From: a virus
Length of the DNA: 64,000 nucleotides
Virus record (IMG/VR): IMGVR_UViG_3300008261_001864
Span: 35,444 to 99,443 of that record
Direction: 5' to 3' (one strand)
The notes under the pieces were generated by a model, which worked only from the letters and a program-made list of their open reading frames with translations, had not been told where the DNA came from and searched no databases. Positions 40,913 to 63,561 of this stretch are shown here, one piece after another. Position 1 is the first letter of the stretch; the number at the start of each line of letters is the position of its first letter. Made by a program: the position numbers and the translations under genes.

Positions 40913-41526
40913 CGAGCGAAGATGGCGTACTCTTTCTCAGCCCACGCCAGTTGCTTGGGGGAGAGAAGGGCGTTCGGCCCCCGCATCCGTTGCAGCATAT
41001 CGGCAAAGATGCCCGAGTTACGGCTGCGCGACACGGCGAGGGCTTGCAGCATCGCCACCTGCCGGTCATGCTCCGACTTGGCCTCCTGCGGACGCTCCTG
41101 ACGGAACCGCTCCTGCTCCTCACGGACGGTGCCCTTGGCCCGCGCCTCCTCACGCTCCTTGGTGAGGTCCTCGAACTTCTCGATGGCGTCCTCGATACGC
41201 TTGCGGAGGTTATCCCGCCAGTTCTCGACGCGGTGGACGCGCTGCTCACGGCCAGCGAAAGGCCGCTTGGACTTGGTGTTCATGAGGGTGACTCGCATGG
41301 AGTCCTCCCCCTCACCTCGGGCGGCTTGCCCTGTGAACACCGAGGTCTGGACCTGGATGACGTTCGTGGGGTCCTCCGCGTCAGGGGTGAGGATGTAGAT
41401 GACCTCACCCCAACTCGACTTCTCGACACGGGGCTTCGTCGCACGGAAGGCTCGCCGGATCAGTTGGTCGATTTCCGGCAGCGTCACCGTGACGGCATGA
41501 GCGGCTTGGCGGTCCAGATACTTCAT
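40909..41526 (-). CDS. Unknown charged helical protein
   Basis: 205 residues, ATG overlapping the helicase stop (ATGA) with a strong AGGAGG site inside the helicase's last codons, so translation is coupled. The N-terminal 100 residues are alpha/beta (WGEVIYILTPDAEDPTNVIQ). Residues 110-175 form a highly charged helix (EKFEDLTKEREEARAKGTV, RQERPQEAKSEHDRQV). The end (KQLAWAEKEYAIFAR) is helical too. No known domain is recognised. Because it is translated with the helicase, it may be a helicase partner or a nucleic-acid-binding accessory. That is inference only. Confidence 0.6.
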   Translation of the reverse strand: MKYLDRQAAHAVTVTLPEIDQLIRRAFRATKPRVEKSSWGEVIYILTPDAEDPTNVIQVQTSVFTGQAARGEGEDSMRVTLMNTKSKRPFAGREQRVHRVENWRDNLRKRIEDAIEKFEDLTKEREEARAKGTVREEQERFRQERPQEAKSEHDRQVAMLQALAVSRSRNSGIFADMLQRMRGPNALLSPKQLAWAEKEYAIFAR

Positions 41527-44500
41527 AGCGGCCTCCTATCGTAGCCATACGCGCCGGAACCGACGAGGGGGAGCGAGGCGGCGGTCTTTTGGGTGAAGTC
41601 GGTCAGGCCCGCGACCGCCTCATCGACATCCACGGGTTCCTCTGCGCCCAGATCAATCGGGTCCTGTGCCGACATGGGGGCCACAGCGCCAGGGGTAAGC
41701 GTCTCGGGCTTCGGCACGTTCTGGCCCATGCGTAGGCCAGCCTCACCAATGAACGGGCTGACCCCTCTGGGGCACATGACCGTCATGGTCTGCTTGGCGC
41801 GAGTGAGGCCCACATAGCCCAGCCGACGCTCCGACTCCATCTCCTGCTCGGGCGTCATCAGAGATTCCTCGGGGACCTCGTTGACAGCCAGCTTCTTCGA
41901 CTTGGCAACACGAGGGAACACTCCCTTGGGCATCAGCAGCGTAACGTCCTCCCACTCCGCACCCTTCGTGGAGTGGACGGTGCCCAGATAGACACCCGGA
42001 GGCGGCTTACGGTTGGAAAGCGGGACCCCCTCGCTGATCTGCTTCTTCTCCCACTCGTCGGGGTCGATGCGGAGTTCCTCGGCACGCTCGGCCAAGTTGT
42101 TGAACCGCCCGTAGAACTGCTTGGGGTCGCTGGGGTTGTACTCGGGGTCGAGATCGTTCGGCTCCATCATGAGTTTCACGAACTCAAGCGCCCCTAGCTT
42201 GGGCTTCTCGGAATCGTCGAGTTCGGCGTCCGTCTCGGATGCTTCCTGCTCGACCTTTGCGGAGATGCGGGCTTCCGTGGACTCACGGAAGGTGACAACC
42301 TTCTCCTGCCACTCTCTGGAGCCAGGGGGCGGGGGCGTCTTTTCCAGAATAGGCAGCGCCAACACCGCCTCGAACAGGTCCTTGGTCTTGAAGCTGGGGT
42401 CTTGGAGGAAGTCGCGGATTTGCGAGATGCCTTCCAAGAGGCCGTCGGCCGCCTGAGTGTTCTTTCTGGCAGCAAACGGGTGGACACCCAAGTGGGTAAA
42501 GAACCCCTCTAGGAACTTCGGGTTGCGATACGCCTCGTCAACGGGGTCAAACTCGGAGAGTTTTCGCCCTTCCTGCTTGCAGTAGGCAGCAAACGCCTGC
42601 TTGGTGTTACGCTGCGTGAGTTTCTTGTTCTCGTCCTTGTCGTCGGAGAACTTCGGCTTGAAAAGACCAGCCGAGACGAGCGTTTGAGCAAATGCGTCTT
42701 GGGCCTGCATGGGGCTTTCGGCCACCGCCGCCGTAGCGAACGCCTTGAAGGACTCGGTTTCGGGAACCGAGAACACAGCCGTGCCCTTCTTCTGGACGAA
42801 CGGGATGCCGAGGGTCGCACAGACCTGCTGATAGACGGCCAACTCGCCGTTGGTACGAGCGAGAACGGCGTGGTCCGACAGGGGCTTACCCTCGTTGCGG
42901 ACCGACAGGATTTTCTTGCCGAACTCTGCCGCCGCAACGGCCTCGTTGGCAGGGTCCTTCACGATGAGGTCAGCCTCACCACGCGCACGGTCGGGGCGGG
43001 CCTTGGCCTCCATCGGGATTTGGTTCTGGTTGTTGGCGATCAGCTTGTTGGCCGCATCGACAAACTCGGGGGCGCAGCGGTAGTTGGTGGTGATCTGACG
43101 ATCCTTGAACCCCTGCTTGTCGAGGGCGATGAACGCCTCGGGGTCCGCACCACGGAACTGGTAGATGCTCTGCTTGTCGTCACCCACCATCCAGAACGAC
43201 TTTTTGGGATCGTCCGTCGAAATATGCTCAGTCATGAGTTGCAGCACCTCAGACTGTAGGGGGTTCAAGTCCTGGCACTCATCCACCATGATGTGGTCGA
43301 TGTTGGCCTGCACGGACTTGCGAGCCGTAGGGTTGTCACGGATGACGTCGCGGAAAACCGACAGCATATCGTTGAAGTCACCGATGCGCGGCTTGCCTGC
43401 CCTGTAGAAGTCCACAAACTTTGAGGCAGCCGTCGAGGGACCCATCGGCTTGTCGGGGCACAGGTTGGGCTGCCAGCCAGGCCCAAGTGAACCCTTTAGA
43501 CCTTCGTATAGTTCGTAGAACTTGATCGCTTGCTTGGCCTCGATGGAGCCTTGCTCGGAAGCCCACGCCTGGGCCTCATCAAAACTCATCCCCTGCCCTT
43601 GGAAGATGTTGAGGTACGCCATCATGCGGCCCGACTTGGGCGGCATCTTCCAGAGTTCATCGGGGGGAAGTTCCCGCTCCTCCCCGTCCTTGTCGCCAGG
43701 GGGATCGCGGTCGATGTGGTCAAAGCACTCTTTCCAGATGTCCTTGGCGGCCTTGAAAAGGGCCGACGCACTTACCGCACCGCCCTTATCCCCCACCTTG
43801 GCAAACACGTCCCGCTGCGCGGGGGTGCCATACAGAGAGATGTACTTCAAGAAGGTCGAGTGCATGGTGCCGACCTGCACACCGTTCGACTTCGGACTCT
43901 TTGTGGTCGATACCCTATCAGGGCCGATCTTCGCGGCCATCTTGACGGCCAACTCGTCGGCGGCCTTCTTGTTGAAGGACATCGCCATCATACGGCTCGG
44001 CTGTGCCCCATTCTCGATGAGGTACTGGACACGGGCCAACAGTGTCGTGCTTTTACCCGAACCTGCACCGGCCGACACACGGACCTTGCCTCCCGTCATG
44101 GCCGCCGCACGCTGCTCAGGATCGAGGGTGCGGAGGGCAGGCGGGACGTTCTTGGGGTCATCGGGGTTGGCGGCGATTGCCGTGGCCGCCGCCGTCGCCA
44201 CACCAATGACCTCGGACTTCGTGAGGGTACGATCCTCCTCACCAGACTTCTCAAGCGCCTTACGGGCCGCCTCGGTGGCGTCCGTCTCAACCTTGGCGAG
44301 AGTGGCAACCTGCTGGTCACGCTGACCCACACTCTGGTCAGAGCCAGGCACGCCACCCTGCTGGACCTTACTGTTGAGAACGCTGTCGGTGGCGTCCGCA
44401 ACACCACGGGTGGCCTCTTGGACGGCACTCACGGTCGCCGTCCCAGGCGTCACAACAACTTCCGAGGCAAAGTCGATCCACCGCTCCAGCATCTTGTTCT

Positions 44501-45032
44501 TGAGCGTGAGTGCCGAGAAGCCGTTGAGGGCTTGGTCAGGGTCATCAATGCCCGCCGCATCAATGGCACCACGGGCTTCCGCAAGAGCCTTACGGTTCGT
44601 ACCAAAAATCTCCTTGAGGATGACCGGCTGCTTCATCACTAGCCGCAGCTTGAGAGCGCGGACAGGGATGCCTTCCTCGGTAGGCTTCGGACGCATCGCC
44701 GCCGCCAACAGCGACAACTTCGAGGTGTCGTCCTTGAGACGCTCCTTGAAGAAGGCTTCGACGGCCTCCAGATTTTGCATCTCCACTCGCCGTAGCAGGC
44801 TGATGCCCTTCTCAAGGATGTCGTCGGCCCGTGCGTAATCTACGTCGGGGCGCTGTGCATCGTGTGCGCCCTGTAGCCAACCGATGTAGCAGTCGAGGGC
44901 GAACACGAACACGATGTAGTCCGCGACCTGTAGTTCGCCCACGGCCTCCTCATCGTTCGCCTTCTTGGTGTGACGACGAGCGGGAGGTGTAGGCGGCAAG
45001 CTGTCGGAGATGTGTCGTCGGCTGTAGGTCAT
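41523..45032 (-). CDS. UvrD/Rep-type superfamily I DNA helicase
   Basis: 1169 residues. All SF1A motifs are visible: Q motif LDPEQRAAA (303-311), Walker A SAGAGSGKST (about 320-329), DECQD (584-588), GDDKQSIYQFRGA (617-629), TTNYR (648-652), VHSTKGAEW (1019-1027) and YVGLTRAKQ (about 1074-1082). This is a 3'-5' UvrD-like unwinding engine. The N-terminal ~300 residues are an additional helical domain unlike UvrD. It lies within a cargo block between sheath and tail tube, away from any replication module, and starts behind a GTGTAAGAGAGG leader. It may act in recombination, repair or genome protection. Confidence 0.92.
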   Translation of the reverse strand: MTYSRRHISDSLPPTPPARRHTKKANDEEAVGELQVADYIVFVFALDCYIGWLQGAHDAQRPDVDYARADDILEKGISLLRRVEMQNLEAVEAFFKERLKDDTSKLSLLAAAMRPKPTEEGIPVRALKLRLVMKQPVILKEIFGTNRKALAEARGAIDAAGIDDPDQALNGFSALTLKNKMLERWIDFASEVVVTPGTATVSAVQEATRGVADATDSVLNSKVQQGGVPGSDQSVGQRDQQVATLAKVETDATEAARKALEKSGEEDRTLTKSEVIGVATAAATAIAANPDDPKNVPPALRTLDPEQRAAAMTGGKVRVSAGAGSGKSTTLLARVQYLIENGAQPSRMMAMSFNKKAADELAVKMAAKIGPDRVSTTKSPKSNGVQVGTMHSTFLKYISLYGTPAQRDVFAKVGDKGGAVSASALFKAAKDIWKECFDHIDRDPPGDKDGEERELPPDELWKMPPKSGRMMAYLNIFQGQGMSFDEAQAWASEQGSIEAKQAIKFYELYEGLKGSLGPGWQPNLCPDKPMGPSTAASKFVDFYRAGKPRIGDFNDMLSVFRDVIRDNPTARKSVQANIDHIMVDECQDLNPLQSEVLQLMTEHISTDDPKKSFWMVGDDKQSIYQFRGADPEAFIALDKQGFKDRQITTNYRCAPEFVDAANKLIANNQNQIPMEAKARPDRARGEADLIVKDPANEAVAAAEFGKKILSVRNEGKPLSDHAVLARTNGELAVYQQVCATLGIPFVQKKGTAVFSVPETESFKAFATAAVAESPMQAQDAFAQTLVSAGLFKPKFSDDKDENKKLTQRNTKQAFAAYCKQEGRKLSEFDPVDEAYRNPKFLEGFFTHLGVHPFAARKNTQAADGLLEGISQIRDFLQDPSFKTKDLFEAVLALPILEKTPPPPGSREWQEKVVTFRESTEARISAKVEQEASETDAELDDSEKPKLGALEFVKLMMEPNDLDPEYNPSDPKQFYGRFNNLAERAEELRIDPDEWEKKQISEGVPLSNRKPPPGVYLGTVHSTKGAEWEDVTLLMPKGVFPRVAKSKKLAVNEVPEESLMTPEQEMESERRLGYVGLTRAKQTMTVMCPRGVSPFIGEAGLRMGQNVPKPETLTPGAVAPMSAQDPIDLGAEEPVDVDEAVAGLTDFTQKTAASLPLVGSGAYGYDRRPL

Positions 45033-51756: not shown

Positions 51757-52872
51757 CTACTCCTCGGAGGCCAGCACCAGCAGACCCTCCGCAACAGCCG
51801 TCATGGGGTCCGTCGCCAACCGAATCTCGGAGATCGGGATGGGGAACCCCTTTTTGTTCATGGAGTTGAACTCGTCCTTGAACACGTCGAGGAACCCACC
51901 GGCCCGCGTCGTCCCGCCGCTCACCACGAAGGGGATGGCCTCGGGGAGGTCGATGGAGGTGCGGGCGTTCTTGAACTGGACGACGATGTTCTCAAGGGTG
52001 TAGCGGATGAGCGCACGGATGTAGAGGGCGATGGCCTCCTCGTCACGGCCCTTGGGGTCCGCGAGGTTCACGCCCTTCTCTTTGAGACTGCACATACGGG
52101 CCGAAGTGCTGCCCATCGCCTTGGCGGCGTTGCGGTCGATCCAATCGCCGCCTCGGGCTAGGCTGAAATCCAAACCCTTGACCGTCTGGTACGCCAGAGC
52201 CGCGTTGCACATACCAGAGCCGTAGGACACGGCCAACCCGCTGAACTGCTCTGCGGCGCATTGGCTGTAGATGATCGCCATAGCCTCGTTCATGGGATGC
52301 GGCGCGTACCCATGCTCGGAGACGATCTTCCGAAACACCTCGGTGTGGTAGATGACATCCTGATCCGGGTCGTCGATGGGCGCGGCAGGCACCGAGTAGT
52401 AACAATGCTCCCCGTCCACCAGCGGCTCACCCAGCACGTTGTGGATGAGCAGGGAGAGGATTTCCTGTGCCTCGATCTCGCCCGACGCGATCACGCCTCG
52501 GCTCAGAGGACGACGGGCCTCGCGCTTGAACAGGTTTGCCATCGTGAGGGCCGAGTCGCCCAGCACCACGAGGTTGTCGTCCTTCTCGACGTAGTTGACC
52601 TTCGAGAGCCGCAGGGTCTTTTTGGCCTCAAGGTCGAGGTCGATGAAGGCGTCCCTGATACGCTTGGTTTCGACGCCACCACCGCTCATGCGGGCCGCCA
52701 CGATGTTCATGGTGCCAATGTCGAGGCCGACACCGGGCTTCGCAGTCTGACTCATCTGGGTTTCCTTTTTGGGTTTTCGGGCCTTGCCGCTCGGCTTGGT
52801 CCCGTCGGTCCACACGGCGGCACAGAGAGCCTCAAACTCCGGGTCGAACTTGTCGGTCGGGTTTGAGGCCAT
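51757..52872 (-). CDS. Actin-like ATPase (MreB/ParM/Hsp70 fold)
   Basis: 371 residues if the ATG at 52872 is used. Three nucleotide-binding motifs are visible in the right order: phosphate-1 GLDIGTMN (49-56), phosphate-2 AVSYGSGMCNAALAY (214-228) and adenosine motif VVSGGTTRAGGF (316-327). Between them are MreB-like segments 'RPLSRGVIASGEIEAQEIL' and 'GDWIDRNAAKAMG'. A later in-frame ATG at 52755 with an AAGGAAA site would trim the charged first 39 residues. Phage actins such as Alp6A and AlpC move or segregate DNA. Here the gene sits in a neck operon beside a Dps-like gene, so filament assembly during maturation is possible but unproven. Confidence 0.82.
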   Translation of the reverse strand: MASNPTDKFDPEFEALCAAVWTDGTKPSGKARKPKKETQMSQTAKPGVGLDIGTMNIVAARMSGGGVETKRIRDAFIDLDLEAKKTLRLSKVNYVEKDDNLVVLGDSALTMANLFKREARRPLSRGVIASGEIEAQEILSLLIHNVLGEPLVDGEHCYYSVPAAPIDDPDQDVIYHTEVFRKIVSEHGYAPHPMNEAMAIIYSQCAAEQFSGLAVSYGSGMCNAALAYQTVKGLDFSLARGGDWIDRNAAKAMGSTSARMCSLKEKGVNLADPKGRDEEAIALYIRALIRYTLENIVVQFKNARTSIDLPEAIPFVVSGGTTRAGGFLDVFKDEFNSMNKKGFPIPISEIRLATDPMTAVAEGLLVLASEE

Positions 52873-52885
52873 CTGTCTCGGGGTG

Positions 52886-54049
52886 TTAGTAGAGTTTGGG
52901 TTTGTAGTTCGATCCCACTTCTTCAAGGAACAAAACCCATTCCTCCCTCAGTTGCTCGGCGTACTTGGCGTCCTTGGACTTGTACTTTTCGATCTCTTTT
53001 TTGAAGGTACTAATGACGTACTCTCGACCCCGCTTGACAGTCTCGGCAATCAGAGCCTTGACGTACTCGGGGTCTTTGCCCTCGTTCATTTTCTTGACGG
53101 CGCGGCAAGCGTTGTCAATGCCCTTTCGGGCCTCCACGTTCATGTCGAAGTCAGCCTTGATAAAGTCAACCAAGCCTTTTTTGCGGTCACGGATGACCTC
53201 GATGATGTCGAGAACGTCGTCTTGGTCTAGCTTGGGACCACTTGCCTGCTTGGAAAGGTCGGACTCAAAGCGGGCGGTGACCTGTCGGGTCAGCAGTTCG
53301 TGCTTGAAGGCGTCCAATGGGTGCATAGTGGCTTCCTTTTGTCGAGTGGCATGAGTGGGGTGACCCATCATGGAGGCTTCCTTCATGGAGGACCGCTGCT
53401 TGAGCAGGTAGGCGAGGGACTCCTGCTTGTCTGCGATGCCCTGCAAGAGGTTGTCGATACCGTGGGAGAGCAGCCCCTTGTCCTCAAGGGCTGCGTAGGC
53501 GAGTTGCATGAGGACCGCTGACTTCATGAGCGCCCGCCACGACAGCAGCGGCATCTCCTGCGGGGTCGGCTGCACGGGGGCATCGCTGTAAAACAGCTTC
53601 GTGAACGTCATCATGTGGCTCATCTGGAGGAGGGGCTGCACCAAGATGGTGTCGCCCTTCCCGACGGCACGCTCGGCCAAGCCGTCGATGAGGCCGTTCA
53701 CTTCGCCGTAGATACGCTCAAACAGCAGATGGTCGCCGTAGTAGGTCTGGCCCCGAGTCTGCCAATGGTGGGCCTGGTGGATCATGGCCTCGGCCCGAAG
53801 GCTCGCCAGCAGTACGGCCAACTCGGCCATAGGGGTGCCGCCGAAGTCAGCCACACAATGCTGGAAGGCGACCTCCACATCGGTACCGACCTGTAGGGCC
53901 GCCTGTCGGACCCATCCACCAACCTCGCCCCCGTGAGCAGCGACCTTCCCGCCCACGATACCCGGTAGGTAGGGGGGTCCGTCCTTCAAGTAGTTGTAGG
54001 AGAGGGGATCGTGCAAAAGGGCGTAGGTCGAGTGGAGGTCATTCAGCAT
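52886..54049 (-). CDS. Dps-like ferroxidase domain fused to unknown helical domain
   Basis: 387 residues. Residues ~60-222 show the Dps pattern: HHWQTRG then YYGDHLLFERIYGEVNGLID and AERAVG. The candidate iron ligands H95, H107, E111, D122 and E126 have spacing 12-4-11-4, identical to Dps H51, H63, D67, D78 and E82, with glutamate replacing one aspartate. A helix-4-like segment (GIDNLLQGIADKQESLAYLL) follows. The C-terminal 146 residues start MHPLDAFKHELLTRQ at an ATG (53326) preceded by AAAAGGAA and could be a separately initiated product. Between them lies GHPTHATRQKE, encoded by a 36-base repeat. Dps proteins detoxify iron and peroxide and bind DNA. Confidence 0.8.
   Translation of the reverse strand: MLNDLHSTYALLHDPLSYNYLKDGPPYLPGIVGGKVAAHGGEVGGWVRQAALQVGTDVEVAFQHCVADFGGTPMAELAVLLASLRAEAMIHQAHHWQTRGQTYYGDHLLFERIYGEVNGLIDGLAERAVGKGDTILVQPLLQMSHMMTFTKLFYSDAPVQPTPQEMPLLSWRALMKSAVLMQLAYAALEDKGLLSHGIDNLLQGIADKQESLAYLLKQRSSMKEASMMGHPTHATRQKEATMHPLDAFKHELLTRQVTARFESDLSKQASGPKLDQDDVLDIIEVIRDRKKGLVDFIKADFDMNVEARKGIDNACRAVKKMNEGKDPEYVKALIAETVKRGREYVISTFKKEIEKYKSKDAKYAEQLREEWVLFLEEVGSNYKPKLY
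53333..53368 (-). repeat. 36-base repeat, copy inside the Dps-like gene
   Basis: Read on the minus strand it begins ATGGGTCACCCCACTC and ends CGACAAAAGGAA. It is the inverse of a 36-base stretch at 56905-56940, with one mismatch. It lies at the border between the Dps-like domain and the C-terminal domain and ends with a ribosome-site-like AAAGGAA seven bases ahead of ATG 53326. The copy is read through in frame as MGHPTHATRQKE. Confidence 0.75.
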
Positions 54050-54360
54050 TAGTCATCCATCCCAGCGAGGATGTCCATGAGGGCGGCCTTCTTGCCCTTG
54101 TTCTTCAACTCCTTGCCCAGATCAGCCAGCGTCTCCTTCTCGGGACGGCCACCGGCCTTGGCAGCACAAAGCGGACACTTGACGCCGCTGGTCTGCTTGA
54201 CGGTCAGGTAGAACTGGTGGGACTCGTCCTTCGAGCAGGTGTACTCAAACAGGTTCGCACCACCCTGCTTGGCCTCACTCTGCTTCTTGCCACCACGCTT
54301 GGCGACTCGGGACATCACGGACTCGGAAAAGTTCAACAGGCTGGCTTGACGCGGGTGCAT
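54049..54360 (-). CDS. Small zinc-ribbon-like protein
   Basis: 103 residues, chosen start ATG 54360 with a perfect AGGAGG site seven bases upstream; a longer reading to 54558 overlaps the upstream gene and lacks support. The N-terminus MHPRQASLLNFSESVM resembles the MHPLDAFKHELL start of the neighbouring C-terminal domain. Cysteines 42, 62 and 65 with H48 could bind zinc (YTCSKDESH, VKCPLC). The C-terminal third is lysine-rich and helical. The stop overlaps the next gene as TAATG. Unknown function, likely nucleic-acid or virion-DNA associated. Confidence 0.6.
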   Translation of the reverse strand: MHPRQASLLNFSESVMSRVAKRGGKKQSEAKQGGANLFEYTCSKDESHQFYLTVKQTSGVKCPLCAAKAGGRPEKETLADLGKELKNKGKKAALMDILAGMDD

Positions 54361-55547: not shown

Positions 55548-56906
55548 CTAATACTCGATGTTCTCCCAGACCTTAGTGCGACCACGGAGTTCGCGCTCGT
55601 CTGGGATGTTGGGCTTGTCGGTGATGGGCGTCGGACCACCCTCCTCGGGCGGCGTGGGGCCGAACTGAACAGCCGTGTAACGCACAGGGTTGTCCATCGG
55701 GACCTTGTAGCGGATGTCCTTCTCGTCGAGGTGGCCGATGTTGAAGTGCTGCTGGAGGACCATGCCTCGGTTGGTCGGCATCCTGACCGCGCCGATGCTG
55801 TACCGCTCCCCATTGATCTTCACGAGGAAGTCTCGCATCGACAGGAGCGGTACAGGACCGGCCCACGCCTCGTAGGTGTGTTCGACGGTGCGGCCAATGT
55901 CCTTCTGCGAGATACGCTTCTCGGCATCGTCGGGGGCGATGATGGACTCGTATGGACCCTCGTAGCCGCCAAGGAACCCCGTCCCGTAACACCGCAGACA
56001 ATCGGACTGCGGTTGCTTGTGGTGGGTGTCGGGGATGCAGGGACAGGGTAGGCCGACGTTCTTGCGTAGGAACAGTCGGACCCGCTCGCCACCCTGCTCC
56101 AAAATCCAGCGGTTCCGGCGCACGGCCTCCCGCCAGATGAAGTCGAGTTTCTCGATCTCTTGGTTGGAGGTCGCCGCAGCGTTCTCCAGCGGTGTCTCGA
56201 TGAAGTCGCTTTCGGACAGGTCGCTCAGACGACAGCCAGGCGGGATGCCCACCGCGCAGACACGGTAAAAGACCCGCTGGGCCAAGTCAGTACGGAGCAG
56301 CGACTTGGTTCGCCGGTAACTGACCGTAACCTTCTCGGCCTTGTTGGCAGGTAGGACGGCCGGATCGTAGTTCTGCAAGGCTACGTTCGAGAACTCACGG
56401 GGGTCGATCTGCACCTCTCCCGAGAACCCATCGACGGCTAGAACACGGGCGCGTCGATCTCCGACGAACACCATAACGTCGTCGGGGTCCTGCGTGGGGG
56501 TGTTCTGGGACCCCGCCTTCACGATGGGCGCATAGAGGGTCTTGAACGAGTACCGTGTGGGACCCTCCTCGGAGGTAGGTTTCCCAAAGTACATCCAACT
56601 AGACGGGACTACGAACTCCTCTACCAACTCCACGTCGGTCTGGTCCCGCCAGAAGGTTGTCCCGACGGGTACCTGCGTGAGCCGGTGGTAGGGGCCAAAC
56701 TCGGAGTCGAAACTCCGATAGACGTTGACGCCCACGAGGTTCCAATCGCTGTTGAGCGACAGGGCAGATGGGTCATCCCATCGAAGATCGTACACGCCTG
56801 GCCGCCACCCACTCGTCAAGAACAGGTTGAGAGGGGGCAGCGGCCACGGCGCACGGGTGATCTCTAGGGACGATGGATTACGGTCACGGTTTGTTGAGTA
56901 CGGCAT
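55548..56906 (-). CDS. Large neck/tail structural protein with zinc-binding loop
   Basis: 452 residues, ATG 56906 with GGGGTGA upstream. The N-terminal half contains a fibronectin-like domain (YDLRWDDPS, WNLVGVNVYRSFDSEFGPY), and the middle is beta-rich. A C-x-C...C-x2-C arrangement (GLPCPCIP..., SDCLRCYGTGFLGGYEG, residues ~308-335) forms a probable zinc loop; the CYGTGF-GGY element recurs in phage head-closure and neck proteins. The C-terminal quarter (PLLSMRDFLVKINGERYSI) looks like a beta-barrel. A neck or head-closure role is inferred. The first codons lie next to the 36-base inverse repeat. Confidence 0.55.
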   Translation of the reverse strand: MPYSTNRDRNPSSLEITRAPWPLPPLNLFLTSGWRPGVYDLRWDDPSALSLNSDWNLVGVNVYRSFDSEFGPYHRLTQVPVGTTFWRDQTDVELVEEFVVPSSWMYFGKPTSEEGPTRYSFKTLYAPIVKAGSQNTPTQDPDDVMVFVGDRRARVLAVDGFSGEVQIDPREFSNVALQNYDPAVLPANKAEKVTVSYRRTKSLLRTDLAQRVFYRVCAVGIPPGCRLSDLSESDFIETPLENAAATSNQEIEKLDFIWREAVRRNRWILEQGGERVRLFLRKNVGLPCPCIPDTHHKQPQSDCLRCYGTGFLGGYEGPYESIIAPDDAEKRISQKDIGRTVEHTYEAWAGPVPLLSMRDFLVKINGERYSIGAVRMPTNRGMVLQQHFNIGHLDEKDIRYKVPMDNPVRYTAVQFGPTPPEEGGPTPITDKPNIPDERELRGRTKVWENIEY

Positions 56907-56940
56907 GGGTCACCCCACTCATGCCACTCGACAAGAGGAA
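56905..56940 (+). repeat. 36-base repeat, inverse copy in the intergenic spacer
   Basis: Reads atgggtcaccccactc...cgacaagaggaa on the plus strand, 35 of 36 bases identical to the minus-strand copy at 53333-53368. It fills nearly all of the 37-base spacer between the 452-residue gene and the 100-residue gene and touches the former's start codon. Such a copy at an intergenic point is consistent with an intergenic element that has been read through in the Dps-like gene. Confidence 0.75.
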
Positions 56941-60586: not shown

Positions 60587-60970
60587 TTACGCCTCGGATG
60601 CGATGAGTTGCCCCGTGGGGAACCGCACCTGGTCATTGATGCCGACGGCTCGGGGTACCGACAGGAGGTTGAAGTACAGGAGGTTGCCTCCCGTGGGCGC
60701 GTCGGTGAGGCCGAACGCCGTCACCGTACCCCACGCCGCCGCCGCAATCGGGAACACCACATCTGCCAAGTTGGCAGCCTGTCCGTTCGCAGGGGTGCTG
60801 AACGTCACCGTCTGGCGAGCGTACCCACCACCCGTCACCTCGGTACCGCCACCGCTGACCGAGGGGGCCACCGTGTAGAGGGAGACGTAGATGGTGGGCG
60901 GGGGAGAGAACGGCACACTCCGCAGGGCAGCGTTCAAGAAGTTGTTGTCGAGGTAGTAGGTCTTGGGCAT
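60587..60970 (-). CDS. Small virion structural protein
   Basis: 127 residues; start ATG 60970 chosen because the longer reading to 61144 overlaps the previous gene and its extra residues are arginine-rich. The sequence begins PKTYYLDNNFLNAALRSVPF, then PPTIYVSLYTVAPSVSGGGT and GGGYARQTVTFS. This pattern ('N..L...lr...p.....yvaLyT..P...G.g.EvsGg.YaRq') is common in small phage structural proteins of tail or decoration type. The rest is beta-rich. It follows a virion protein gene and precedes a 241-residue one. Exact location in the particle unknown. Confidence 0.65.
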   Translation of the reverse strand: MPKTYYLDNNFLNAALRSVPFSPPPTIYVSLYTVAPSVSGGGTEVTGGGYARQTVTFSTPANGQAANLADVVFPIAAAAWGTVTAFGLTDAPTGGNLLYFNLLSVPRAVGINDQVRFPTGQLIASEA

Positions 60971-60981
60971 GGGGGTGCGCC

Positions 60982-61398
60982 TTAGCAGTTGGTGGGCTTC
61001 ATGAAGGACGGCTTGAGTCCTCCGCTGCCGCCGCTCGTGGTTTCGCTCACGGACTTCACGACGTCGTACTCCTGCCCGACGATCTGGAGGCCCGTGGGGT
61101 ACGAGAGGATGATGCGCCAGAAGCCGACCGCGTTGGGTCGCCATCGGACATTGTAGAAGCCAGGCATCCCAGCGACCTCAGACCAATAGACTCGGCCCGA
61201 CGACACTTGAGCATCCGGCACACCAAGGCCTGGCACGAGAGGCCACGGCTGCGCCTCGTTCTGGTAAAAGACTTGGCTGGTCAGACCCGCGATGGATAAG
61301 CCGACAACTCGTGTGTAGCCGTCGTTCTCATAGAAGTCGGCCATATCCAGCACAATCTGGTTGTTCGTGACAAGTCTTGTGCGGGTCTGGGCGCTCAC
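60982..61398 (-). CDS. Virion protein with Ig-like domain
   Basis: 138 residues from a GTG at 61398 with AGGAG five bases from the spacer. Residues 10-110 form a beta domain (IVLDMADFYENDGYTRVVGL, GFYNVRWRPNAVGFWRIILS) that resembles those of the 298- and 241-residue neighbours. The C-terminus is glycine/serine-rich (SETTSGGSGGLKPSFMKP), ending with a lone cysteine. It may be a linker-carrying decoration subunit. No other function suggested. Confidence 0.5.
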   Translation of the reverse strand: MSAQTRTRLVTNNQIVLDMADFYENDGYTRVVGLSIAGLTSQVFYQNEAQPWPLVPGLGVPDAQVSSGRVYWSEVAGMPGFYNVRWRPNAVGFWRIILSYPTGLQIVGQEYDVVKSVSETTSGGSGGLKPSFMKPTNC

Positions 61399-61798: not shown

Positions 61799-62440
61799 CT
61801 ACTTGAGGAAAGAAGGGTAACGGTAGTTGGGCCTGCGGTTGTAACCCTCGCCCACGACCACCGACGTTCCTTGGGTAGCCACGCGCCTGCCCGTGGCATC
61901 CAAACGGAATCCGTCGAGAGGCATCCACAACATCAGCCCCGCAGGGTGGGGCCGACTAGAGTGCATCTCTTGGACAACCTCGTGGTCCATCATGGCGCGA
62001 GTAAAAATCCGAACGTCCGAGATGTGACCAAAAAGAGACTGTGCGCCTGCCGACGCGGAGTTCCCAATCGTGATGCTCGTCCAGTTGAAGAAGGTACGGC
62101 CTGTCTCGTTGACCGTCACCACCTTGCGACCGTCGATGTACCCTTGAATGACGACGCTCTGATTGCTGATAAACCGCATCGAGTAGGCCAAGTGATACCA
62201 CTTGCCGATGGTTAGTTGAGGGCCGTTCACGTCGATGAGGTCTGTCCCGAAGTTGCTGGTCACGCCGTCCGTGTCGGTCGCCAGATAGAGGCCGCCGGGG
62301 CGCGTGCAGCAGAACACGCGGTAGCGGGCCGTCGAGGCTTGAAGGCGGCCCCAAAGGCAAACCGTGAGGTCTTGCGTGGCCGTGTAAGAGGCCGGGACAG
62401 AAATCCACGATGCGCTTGAACTGGGGAAGTAGAGGGACAC
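61799..62440 (-). CDS. LamG/concanavalin-like virion protein
   Basis: 213 residues from the GTG at 62440, which overlaps the previous TAG stop (TAGTG) and has AAGG eight bases upstream. Residues ~15-185 show the LamG pattern: TVCLWGRLQA, then GKWYHLAYSM, a GYIDGRKVVTVNETGR strand and SITIGNSASAG followed by FGHISDVRIFTRAM. This jelly roll commonly binds carbohydrates or proteins on cell surfaces. It lies in the virion-decoration region. A receptor or capsule-binding role is plausible; the ligand is unknown. Confidence 0.75.
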   Translation of the reverse strand: MSLYFPSSSASWISVPASYTATQDLTVCLWGRLQASTARYRVFCCTRPGGLYLATDTDGVTSNFGTDLIDVNGPQLTIGKWYHLAYSMRFISNQSVVIQGYIDGRKVVTVNETGRTFFNWTSITIGNSASAGAQSLFGHISDVRIFTRAMMDHEVVQEMHSSRPHPAGLMLWMPLDGFRLDATGRRVATQGTSVVVGEGYNRRPNYRYPSFLK

Positions 62441-63561
62441 TAGACGAACCTTCCCCGAACGCCCTGCCAGAAGATTTTGTTGTTGCCTGCCGTCGCGCTC
62501 AAAGCCTGTCCCGATACGTTGGTGACAACAAACCCCCACCGCTCGGGGAGCCGGTCAATGCCGTACAGGCGGCAGAACGAGAACGGGCCAGCGTTGTACT
62601 GCGCGGACGAGGTGCTGGCCGGGAGGCTGACCAGCAGGACGAGTTCCGTGGGGTTACGGATTGTGAGTGCGGCGTCGGAACCCGTGGCACCCGCCGAGTA
62701 CGTCGTCCCGCTATCGACCGTCGCGTACCCATAGACGTTCAAGTACCCGGTCGCAGAGGCCGAGGCCACCGTCTGGTACTTGATGAAGAACAGGGCGTCC
62801 TCAAACAGGTCCGTGGTGTTGTCCACATACGTCGAGGCACGGGCTGCCGTCGCGCTGCTGGCAAGGCTGGCGAGCGTTATGGTGATGGATTGGTTGTTCG
62901 TCCCGTAGGTCGGCTTGATATGGGCGTTGATGGGCGAGTTAGGGCTTAGGCTGACAACGAGGGCAGGGTCAGTAGTGGCGGCTGCCGTGCTGGCCGCCTT
63001 GACGACCGCCGTGTTCGTACCGTCCCAAATCTTTGCCGGGGAGTTCGGGCTTAGGCTGACGACCAACCCGGTGTCCGAGGCGACCGCCGCCGTGCTGGCC
63101 GCCGTCACCGTCGCGTTCGTCGTACCGTCCGTGATGCGATGGAACCCGGCCCGGCTCGCCGTGTCCATCATCGGCATCGTGTTGGTGCCATCCGTGATGC
63201 GGACCGGCCAGTACCCTGCCAGCGCCGCCGCCGTACCCTGCCCAACCGTCAGGGCGGGCTGGTCACTCGCCAGCGTGACAGGGATGGACGACGCCATAGC
63301 CTTCTGGCCGACCGTCGGAGCCGTGCTACCAAGCCAAGAACCCGTGTTCGTGTCCAGACGGCTGCTCACCAGCGAGGGCGGCAGTTGGTCTGTGACGGTC
63401 TTGAGTTGGCCGGTCGAATCCACGAGCAGGAACCGGGAGGTCGTGCTGTCCTTGCCCGCCAGCATGACCCCGCGAGCGTTAGCCGGTATGGCGGTCGAGT
63501 CCTTGAGCGGGATTTCTACGCCGTCCGTCGTGAACAGGACCGCAACTGGTGAACCGGCCAT
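62440..63561 (-). CDS. Repeat-containing virion structural protein
   Basis: 373 residues, ATG overlapping the upstream TAA (TAATG). The N-terminal half contains repeated units: FHRITDGTTNATVTAASTAA, LVVSLSPNSPAKIWDGTNTA and LVVSLSPNSPINAH, with 35-residue periodicity that is also visible in the DNA around 62936-63145. Such 'DGTN' repeats appear in elongated phage fibre or decoration proteins. The C-terminal ~150 residues form a globular beta domain (STYVDNTTDLFEDALFFIKY, ERWGFVVTNVSGQALSATAG). The stop overlaps the next gene's start. Likely a fibre or surface protein. Confidence 0.6.
   Translation of the reverse strand: MAGSPVAVLFTTDGVEIPLKDSTAIPANARGVMLAGKDSTTSRFLLVDSTGQLKTVTDQLPPSLVSSRLDTNTGSWLGSTAPTVGQKAMASSIPVTLASDQPALTVGQGTAAALAGYWPVRITDGTNTMPMMDTASRAGFHRITDGTTNATVTAASTAAVASDTGLVVSLSPNSPAKIWDGTNTAVVKAASTAAATTDPALVVSLSPNSPINAHIKPTYGTNNQSITITLASLASSATAARASTYVDNTTDLFEDALFFIKYQTVASASATGYLNVYGYATVDSGTTYSAGATGSDAALTIRNPTELVLLVSLPASTSSAQYNAGPFSFCRLYGIDRLPERWGFVVTNVSGQALSATAGNNKIFWQGVRGRFV
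62936..63145 (-). repeat. 105-base tandem repeat coding for DGTN modules
   Basis: Two consecutive copies begin with gagttMgggcttaggctga (62936 and 63041), each about 105 bases, and encode the 35-residue 'DGTN...SLSPNSP' unit. Both contain gctggccgcc near the same point and 'gtaccgtcc' near the end. The second copy is offset by three bases toward its end. They are in-frame coding repeats. Confidence 0.7.

Follow-up and report, generated by a model that had tools for sequence, protein, structure and literature searches.

What does a Dps-like protein do between the neck and tail genes of a virus, and could it be carried by the particle? Members of the Dps family form dodecameric cages, in which ferroxidase ligands shared at the two-fold interfaces oxidise Fe(II), preferably with peroxide. 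We analysed a window of 64,000 nucleotides, corresponding to bases 35444-99443 of a 99.4-kb IMG/VR viral contig, in which a sequence-only reading had recognised a Dps-like ferroxidase domain within a 387-residue protein and had placed its gene in a neck-gene operon.

A Dps-like protein among neck and tail genes

The sequence-only reading was based on the Dps ligand spacing 12-4-11-4 (H95, H107, E111, D122, E126) within residues 60-222. We found this spacing exactly as described, with a single occurrence in the 387-aa protein. Shuffling the protein 20,000 times reproduced the pattern 6 times, and none of the 2,420 other ORFs of 100 aa or more in related loci has it. These counts, together with the Dps fold, rule out a chance motif. 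All five residues of the Dps ligand set H, H, [DE], D, E are present in the window protein, and the third position is variable in its relatives.

We compared the protein with family and structure databases. In the PHROG search, the match to phrog_3636, named 'DNA binding protein', covered residues 75-137 only and was followed by phrog_858 (6.2e-6). The Pfam Ferritin family (PF00210) scored 17.2 bits, below its curated cut-off of 24.5, which was passed by the relatives L074 (32.7) and L052 (24.6). DUF5856 (PF19174) scored 18.3 bits, below its curated cut-off of 34.6. A PDB search with the single sequence returned Dps proteins, the best at 1.5e-4. With a profile of 49 family sequences, native Dps entries were matched at about 2e-11 in an alignment spanning all four helices, and engineered chimeras on a Dps scaffold scored somewhat better than native Dps.

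The AlphaFold2 (AF2) model, a monomer built on the 49-sequence family alignment, contains helices at residues 75-97, 103-131, 139-153, 166-190, and 196-228. The block-mean pLDDT was 92-99 over residues 51-220 and poor in the first 40 residues and past about residue 230; an extra N-terminal helix (37-67), ahead of the Dps domain, was also predicted with confidence. The model and the Foldseek matches agree on the hallmark of Dps, a four-helix bundle with a short helix between helices B and C. What had been described from the letters as a helix-4-like end is a real helix D in the model. As in Dps, H95 ends helix A, and H107, E111, D122, and E126 lie on helix B. The four-helix ferritin fold implied by the reading was thus recovered, and the best 50 PDB matches listed by Foldseek were all Dps chains (target-normalised TM up to 0.76). 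A classical ferritin or another helical bundle was rejected because all of these listed matches are Dps.

Cellular Dps proteins (Nostoc Dps4 5hjh, T. elongatus Dps 2c41, DpsA 2vxx, and S. coelicolor DpsC 4cyb) have the same four-helix fold with the extra B-C helix and, like the window protein, carry the H/H/[DE]/D/E ligands on helices A and B. The window protein differs from them in its sequence (about 20-25% identity), in a virus-specific YGDHLLF around H107, in having no basic tail, and in being encoded in a phage structural operon. Among predicted viral proteins, the Foldseek matches included Dps proteins of phages, among them gp346 of Bacillus phage G. Three larger proteins in BFVD annotated as prohead protease (A0A6J7WPK9, A0A6J7XDU5, and A0A6J7WIS1) also matched the Dps model with a probability of 1.00, and these are possible Dps fusions to head-maturation proteins.

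Table 1 Features of the Dps-like gene and its neighbours in the window (positions are those of the window).
Feature	Position	Strand	Basis
Head protein	60587..61144	-	phrog_240 (2.2e-34)
Possible head-tail connector, 298 aa	58948..59844	-	phrog_17327 (0.001, weak)
Virion structural protein, 452 aa	55548..56906	-	phrog_1004 (7.4e-6); syntenic in group A
Small conserved 'MHPRQ' protein	54049..54360	-	Synteny; directly upstream of Dps-like gene
Dps-like gene, 387 aa	52886..54049	-	ORF; phrog_3636 (1.7e-8); AF2 and Foldseek match to Dps
Dps domain, residues 60-222	53384..53872	-	AF2 helices, pLDDT 92-99
Putative ferroxidase ligand stretch, H95-E126 (H95, H107, E111, D122, E126)	53672..53767	-	Spacing pattern and conservation
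C-terminal extension, residues 223-387	52889..53383	-	Low-confidence helices; absent from relatives; weakly constrained relative to L002
Actin-like (Volactin family) gene	51757..52872	-	PF25216 (2.7e-73); directly downstream of Dps-like gene; likely ATG start at 52872
Probable tail terminator, 386 aa	50593..51753	-	Foldseek matches to phage neck chains
Zinc-ribbon protein, 149 aa	50125..50574	-	Zn_ribbon_8 (7.7e-7, below cut-off); syntenic
Tail sheath, 1417 aa	45730..49983	-	phrog_2839 tail sheath (1.6e-25) in homologue; PF17482 (Phage_sheath_1C) weak (0.015) in window protein

The genes follow one another on the minus strand in the order of Table 1, with several other genes between the virion structural protein and the MHPRQ gene. 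Baseplate J and M23 peptidase genes lie further downstream of the sheath. The description of the surroundings as a neck-gene operon was right, with the phrog_240 head protein upstream and the tail sheath and the probable terminator, identified by fold, downstream. With its head, possible connector, probable terminator, sheath, and baseplate neighbours, the Dps gene is flanked by neck genes on one side and tail genes on the other, in a phage with a contractile tail. The 386-aa protein is the probable tail terminator based on Foldseek matches of its model, which is of low confidence (mean pLDDT 60), to a neck chain of phage 812 (3.1e-7), then to E217, Pa193, and XM1, with lambda gpU lower down. 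A PDB profile search by sequence gave no match for the sheath, the 452-aa protein, or the terminator.

The actin-like neighbour matched Volactin (PF25216) over positions 3-321 of the 321-position model with 247.7 bits (cut-off 35), and its profile also touches the actin-like ATPases 5jyg/5ljv. Volactin has been described as an archaeal cell-shape actin homologue from Haloferax (PMC10869688); the neighbour matches nearly the full model but lies in a phage structural operon. Two further genes were observed in the window. A UvrD-like helicase (2.6e-43) is encoded at 41523-45032, right within the set of tail genes and downstream of the sheath, and a 373-aa protein at 62440-63561, with a sub-threshold match to SBP_bac_10 (DUF1559), overlaps two 93-nt direct repeats at 62933-63130.

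Conservation of the ligands and of the gene position

A scan of 2.9 million viral contigs uncovered 114 encoding Dps-like relatives, of which 80 were kept. No relatives were found in two scans of bacteria and archaea (85,000 species, one genome for each), which searched for short peptide patterns and would overlook sequences that have diverged. At that sensitivity the Dps signature therefore appears to be virus-specific, and, within the same limit, recent acquisition from a host was not supported.

In 73 distinct Dps proteins from the viral scan, H95, H107, D122, and E126 were invariant and E111 was E or D in 41 of 73, counts that are biased by the second viral scan having picked sequences by motifs around H95 and H107. 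For this reason, the ligand count was redone on loci fetched via the neighbouring terminator gene. In the 56 distinct full Dps proteins from these loci, a count that leaves out one further, truncated sequence, the same four ligands were again invariant (56/56), as were W96, D106, Y114, E210, and Y214. The four-ligand invariance holds across identities down to about 25-30%. E111 is the sole ligand without conservation among the relatives: its position was occupied by E or D in 45 of the 56 (about 80%) and by M, Q, or A in 11.

Comparison of the window sequence with its nearest distinct relative, L002, gave a dN of 0.19 and a dS of 1.3 (near saturation) for the Dps core, which at the level of codon comparison was shown to be under purifying selection; the C-terminal tail is far less constrained. 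Fold, profiles, and ligand conservation across dozens of related contigs support the prediction of a Dps-like ferroxidase.

We then analysed the position of the gene in the 80 loci fetched via the terminator gene, many of which are fragments and some near-copies. Loci with at least 5 kb upstream of the terminator were taken as informative (n=62). The Dps gene was located just upstream of the actin-like gene in 61 of the 62, and the two genes were on the same strand in all 68 loci carrying both, separated by a median gap of about 26 nt (up to about 900 nt in a few). The one informative locus without Dps (L114, 5629-7083) is a real absence, the actin-like gene coming right after the MHPRQ gene, which indicates that Dps is not strictly essential. 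Contigs of the relatives reach 529 kb, indicating large phages.

A tree of 108 Dps cores showed the operon group to be strongly clustered, with 3 label changes compared to 35 in shuffles. In a second Dps group, the neighbours look like nucleotide or replication genes, and a Volactin-family protein is encoded a few kb away. Volactin-family actin-like genes (51757-52872 in the window; L030, L053, and L060) were thus observed in two large-phage groups, in both no more than a few kb from a Dps gene.

Known phage Dps proteins and the tails of the operon group

Phage Dps proteins of phrog_3636, the best family match of the window protein, and phrog_858 are known from Salmonella phage 7-11, phage G (gp346), Lactobacillus phages, and gut phages, and have the same domain and ligand pattern. 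Where examined (7-11 and phage G), their genes are located in metabolism or replication regions and not beside neck genes as here: the gene of phage 7-11 adjoins a thymidylate synthase gene, and that of phage G lies in a nucleotide and replication region. Lactobacillus phages carry Dps genes near DNA-metabolism genes (PMC6669764), and the Dps genes of gut phages have been read as conferring oxidative-stress tolerance (PMC8008677).

Dps proteins had been described as not usually belonging to tail or neck clusters, a statement to which one precedent has to be added. In Salmonella phage Sajous1, gp217 ('ferritin') was detected in CsCl-purified virions, and the study proposes that its gene shares an operon with that of a tail completion protein (PMC10892097). 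We found that gp217 (L084:5948-6301) belongs to DUF5856 (PF19174, 1.3e-28) and has the spacing H-12-H-15-D-4-E in common with the window Dps, but is only 117 aa long and has G at the third ligand position. No paper on DUF5856 was found in the literature searched. Phage Dps is already known, as is the occurrence in Salmonella phage virions of a DUF5856 protein that shares the H/H/D/E spacing. The fixed place in the neck operon, the actin-like partner, and the Dps-specific C-terminal tail motif of many members were not found in the papers searched, where neither a Dps/actin-like pair nor Dps in a jumbo-phage neck operon is described. The main text of a 2026 jumbo phage review mentions neither Dps nor actin, and PMC12796354 was a false lead, DP/DPs being the acronym of a capsid protein there.

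The tail motif is SY[DSGA]xR-like and was found in the short C-terminal tail of 28 of 61 operon members and 0 of 47 members of other groups, compared to a mean of 2 and a maximum of 8 in shuffled tails; it was picked after inspection, and the counts are not corrected for relatedness. Among the C-termini encoded in the operon loci it is almost confined to Dps, and it is absent from the window protein and from L002. One guess is that it serves as a docking peptide. The group A tails (L085-L164) are short and SY[DSGA]xR-like or WK-containing, and are nearly exclusive to Dps among the genes of the loci.

Searches with the window protein's C-terminal extension yielded no match to Pfam, NCBIfam, or PHROG that could be interpreted. 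Separating this extension from the Dps domain, in frame inside the gene, is one arm (53333-53368) of a 36-nt inverted repeat, the other arm of which is found 3.5 kb away at 56905-56940 (97% complementary). L002 does not have the insertion at the arm in the Dps gene, and the second arm overlaps an intergenic gap.

Proposed role and competing explanations

We consider that the protein is probably a Dps-type mini-ferritin of a virus-specific clade, a putative ferroxidase whose expression most likely falls late, together with that of the neck and tail genes, in a group of large contractile-tailed phages. The most likely role is that of a working ferroxidase made along with the neck and tail proteins, which would limit iron and peroxide damage during assembly. 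By analogy with the Dps family, the subunits would form a cage, at whose two-fold interfaces Fe(II) would be bound by H95, H107, and, in members that have it, E111 from one subunit, and by D122/E126 from its partner. The bound Fe(II) would be oxidised with peroxide or oxygen, again as in the family, which would clear free iron and peroxide from around the phage DNA while it is packaged and the particle is put together. Late expression alongside the neck and tail genes and protection of the phage DNA during assembly are proposed with less confidence. This explanation has in its favour the fold and profile matches, the four invariant ligands, the core dN of 0.19 against a dS of 1.3, the operon place kept in 61 of 62 loci, and the DUF5856 protein of Sajous1 virions; against it are the M, Q, or A at the E111 position in 11 of 56 proteins, the locus L114, which has no Dps gene, and the location of Dps relatives of other phages in metabolism or replication regions.

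The strongest competitor is a protective enzyme that acts against oxidative stress in the cell and never enters the particle, the neck operon simply providing late and strong expression. It has a substantial chance of being correct, if somewhat below even, and it agrees with the published reading of the gut and Lactobacillus phage Dps (PMC8008677, PMC6669764). The Dps relatives in the metabolism and replication regions of other phages are also in line with it and indicate that a role in iron handling does not require the particle. However, it leaves unexplained why the place beside the actin-like and neck genes is kept so consistently while the Dps sequence diverges strongly, and why the tail motif is found only in the operon group.

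It is improbable, in our estimate, that the Dps fold was recruited mainly as a scaffold or as a neck or assembly part, with iron chemistry secondary or lost. The operon place, the loss of E111 in some members, and the C-terminal tail motif would fit such a recruit, but a pure scaffold would not need four ligands that are invariant over very divergent sequences. Since these four ligands persist even in members that have lost E111, we consider it more likely that iron chemistry has been retained than that the role is purely structural.

The sequence-only reading had also proposed, as possible roles, protection or condensation of DNA or storage of iron in or near the particle. The four invariant ligands are in keeping with iron chemistry, but condensation by a basic tail is unsupported. 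Binding and compaction of the phage DNA, in the manner of E. coli Dps, has family precedent and the name of phrog_3636 in its favour, yet we regard it as quite unlikely given the median net charge (-2 in the N-terminal part, -6 in the core, and +1 in the C-terminal tail). A basic DNA-binding tail, which only some Dps have and which is not strictly defining, was not found, and the N-terminal part and core are acidic. Very unlikely is a Ferrojan-horse role, in which particle-held iron helps the phage to use host iron-uptake receptors, as proposed for Vi01-like phages with a ferritin-like protein encoded near a tail completion gene, since those authors saw no TonB/FeoB dependence in the host tested (PMC10892097) and nothing at the Dps locus points to receptor use.

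For the favoured putative ferroxidase, a place in the virion is no more than hinted at by the operon position and by the distant DUF5856 relative in Salmonella phage virions (PMC10892097). Attachment of Dps to the assembling particle, in which case it may stay in the virion, is conceivable, although we lean slightly against it. We think it rather unlikely that the cage is a genuine virion component, either docked at the neck or accompanying the DNA (in many members perhaps via the short C-terminal tail), and that it works together with the adjacent actin-like ATPase in head-tail joining.

Phage Dps has so far been read as an accessory for stress tolerance; here it is kept with an actin-like gene in the neck operon of a whole large-phage group. 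The finding also suggests a Dps clade specific to viruses and connects DUF5856 with the ligand pattern of Dps. The fixed operon place makes the question of a virion ferroxidase, whether it is carried and whether it is needed, directly testable. The results suggest that phages with Dps in the neck operon manage iron while, or in, building their particles. If Dps were borne by the virion together with an actin-like ATPase, the particle would carry a ferroxidase module.
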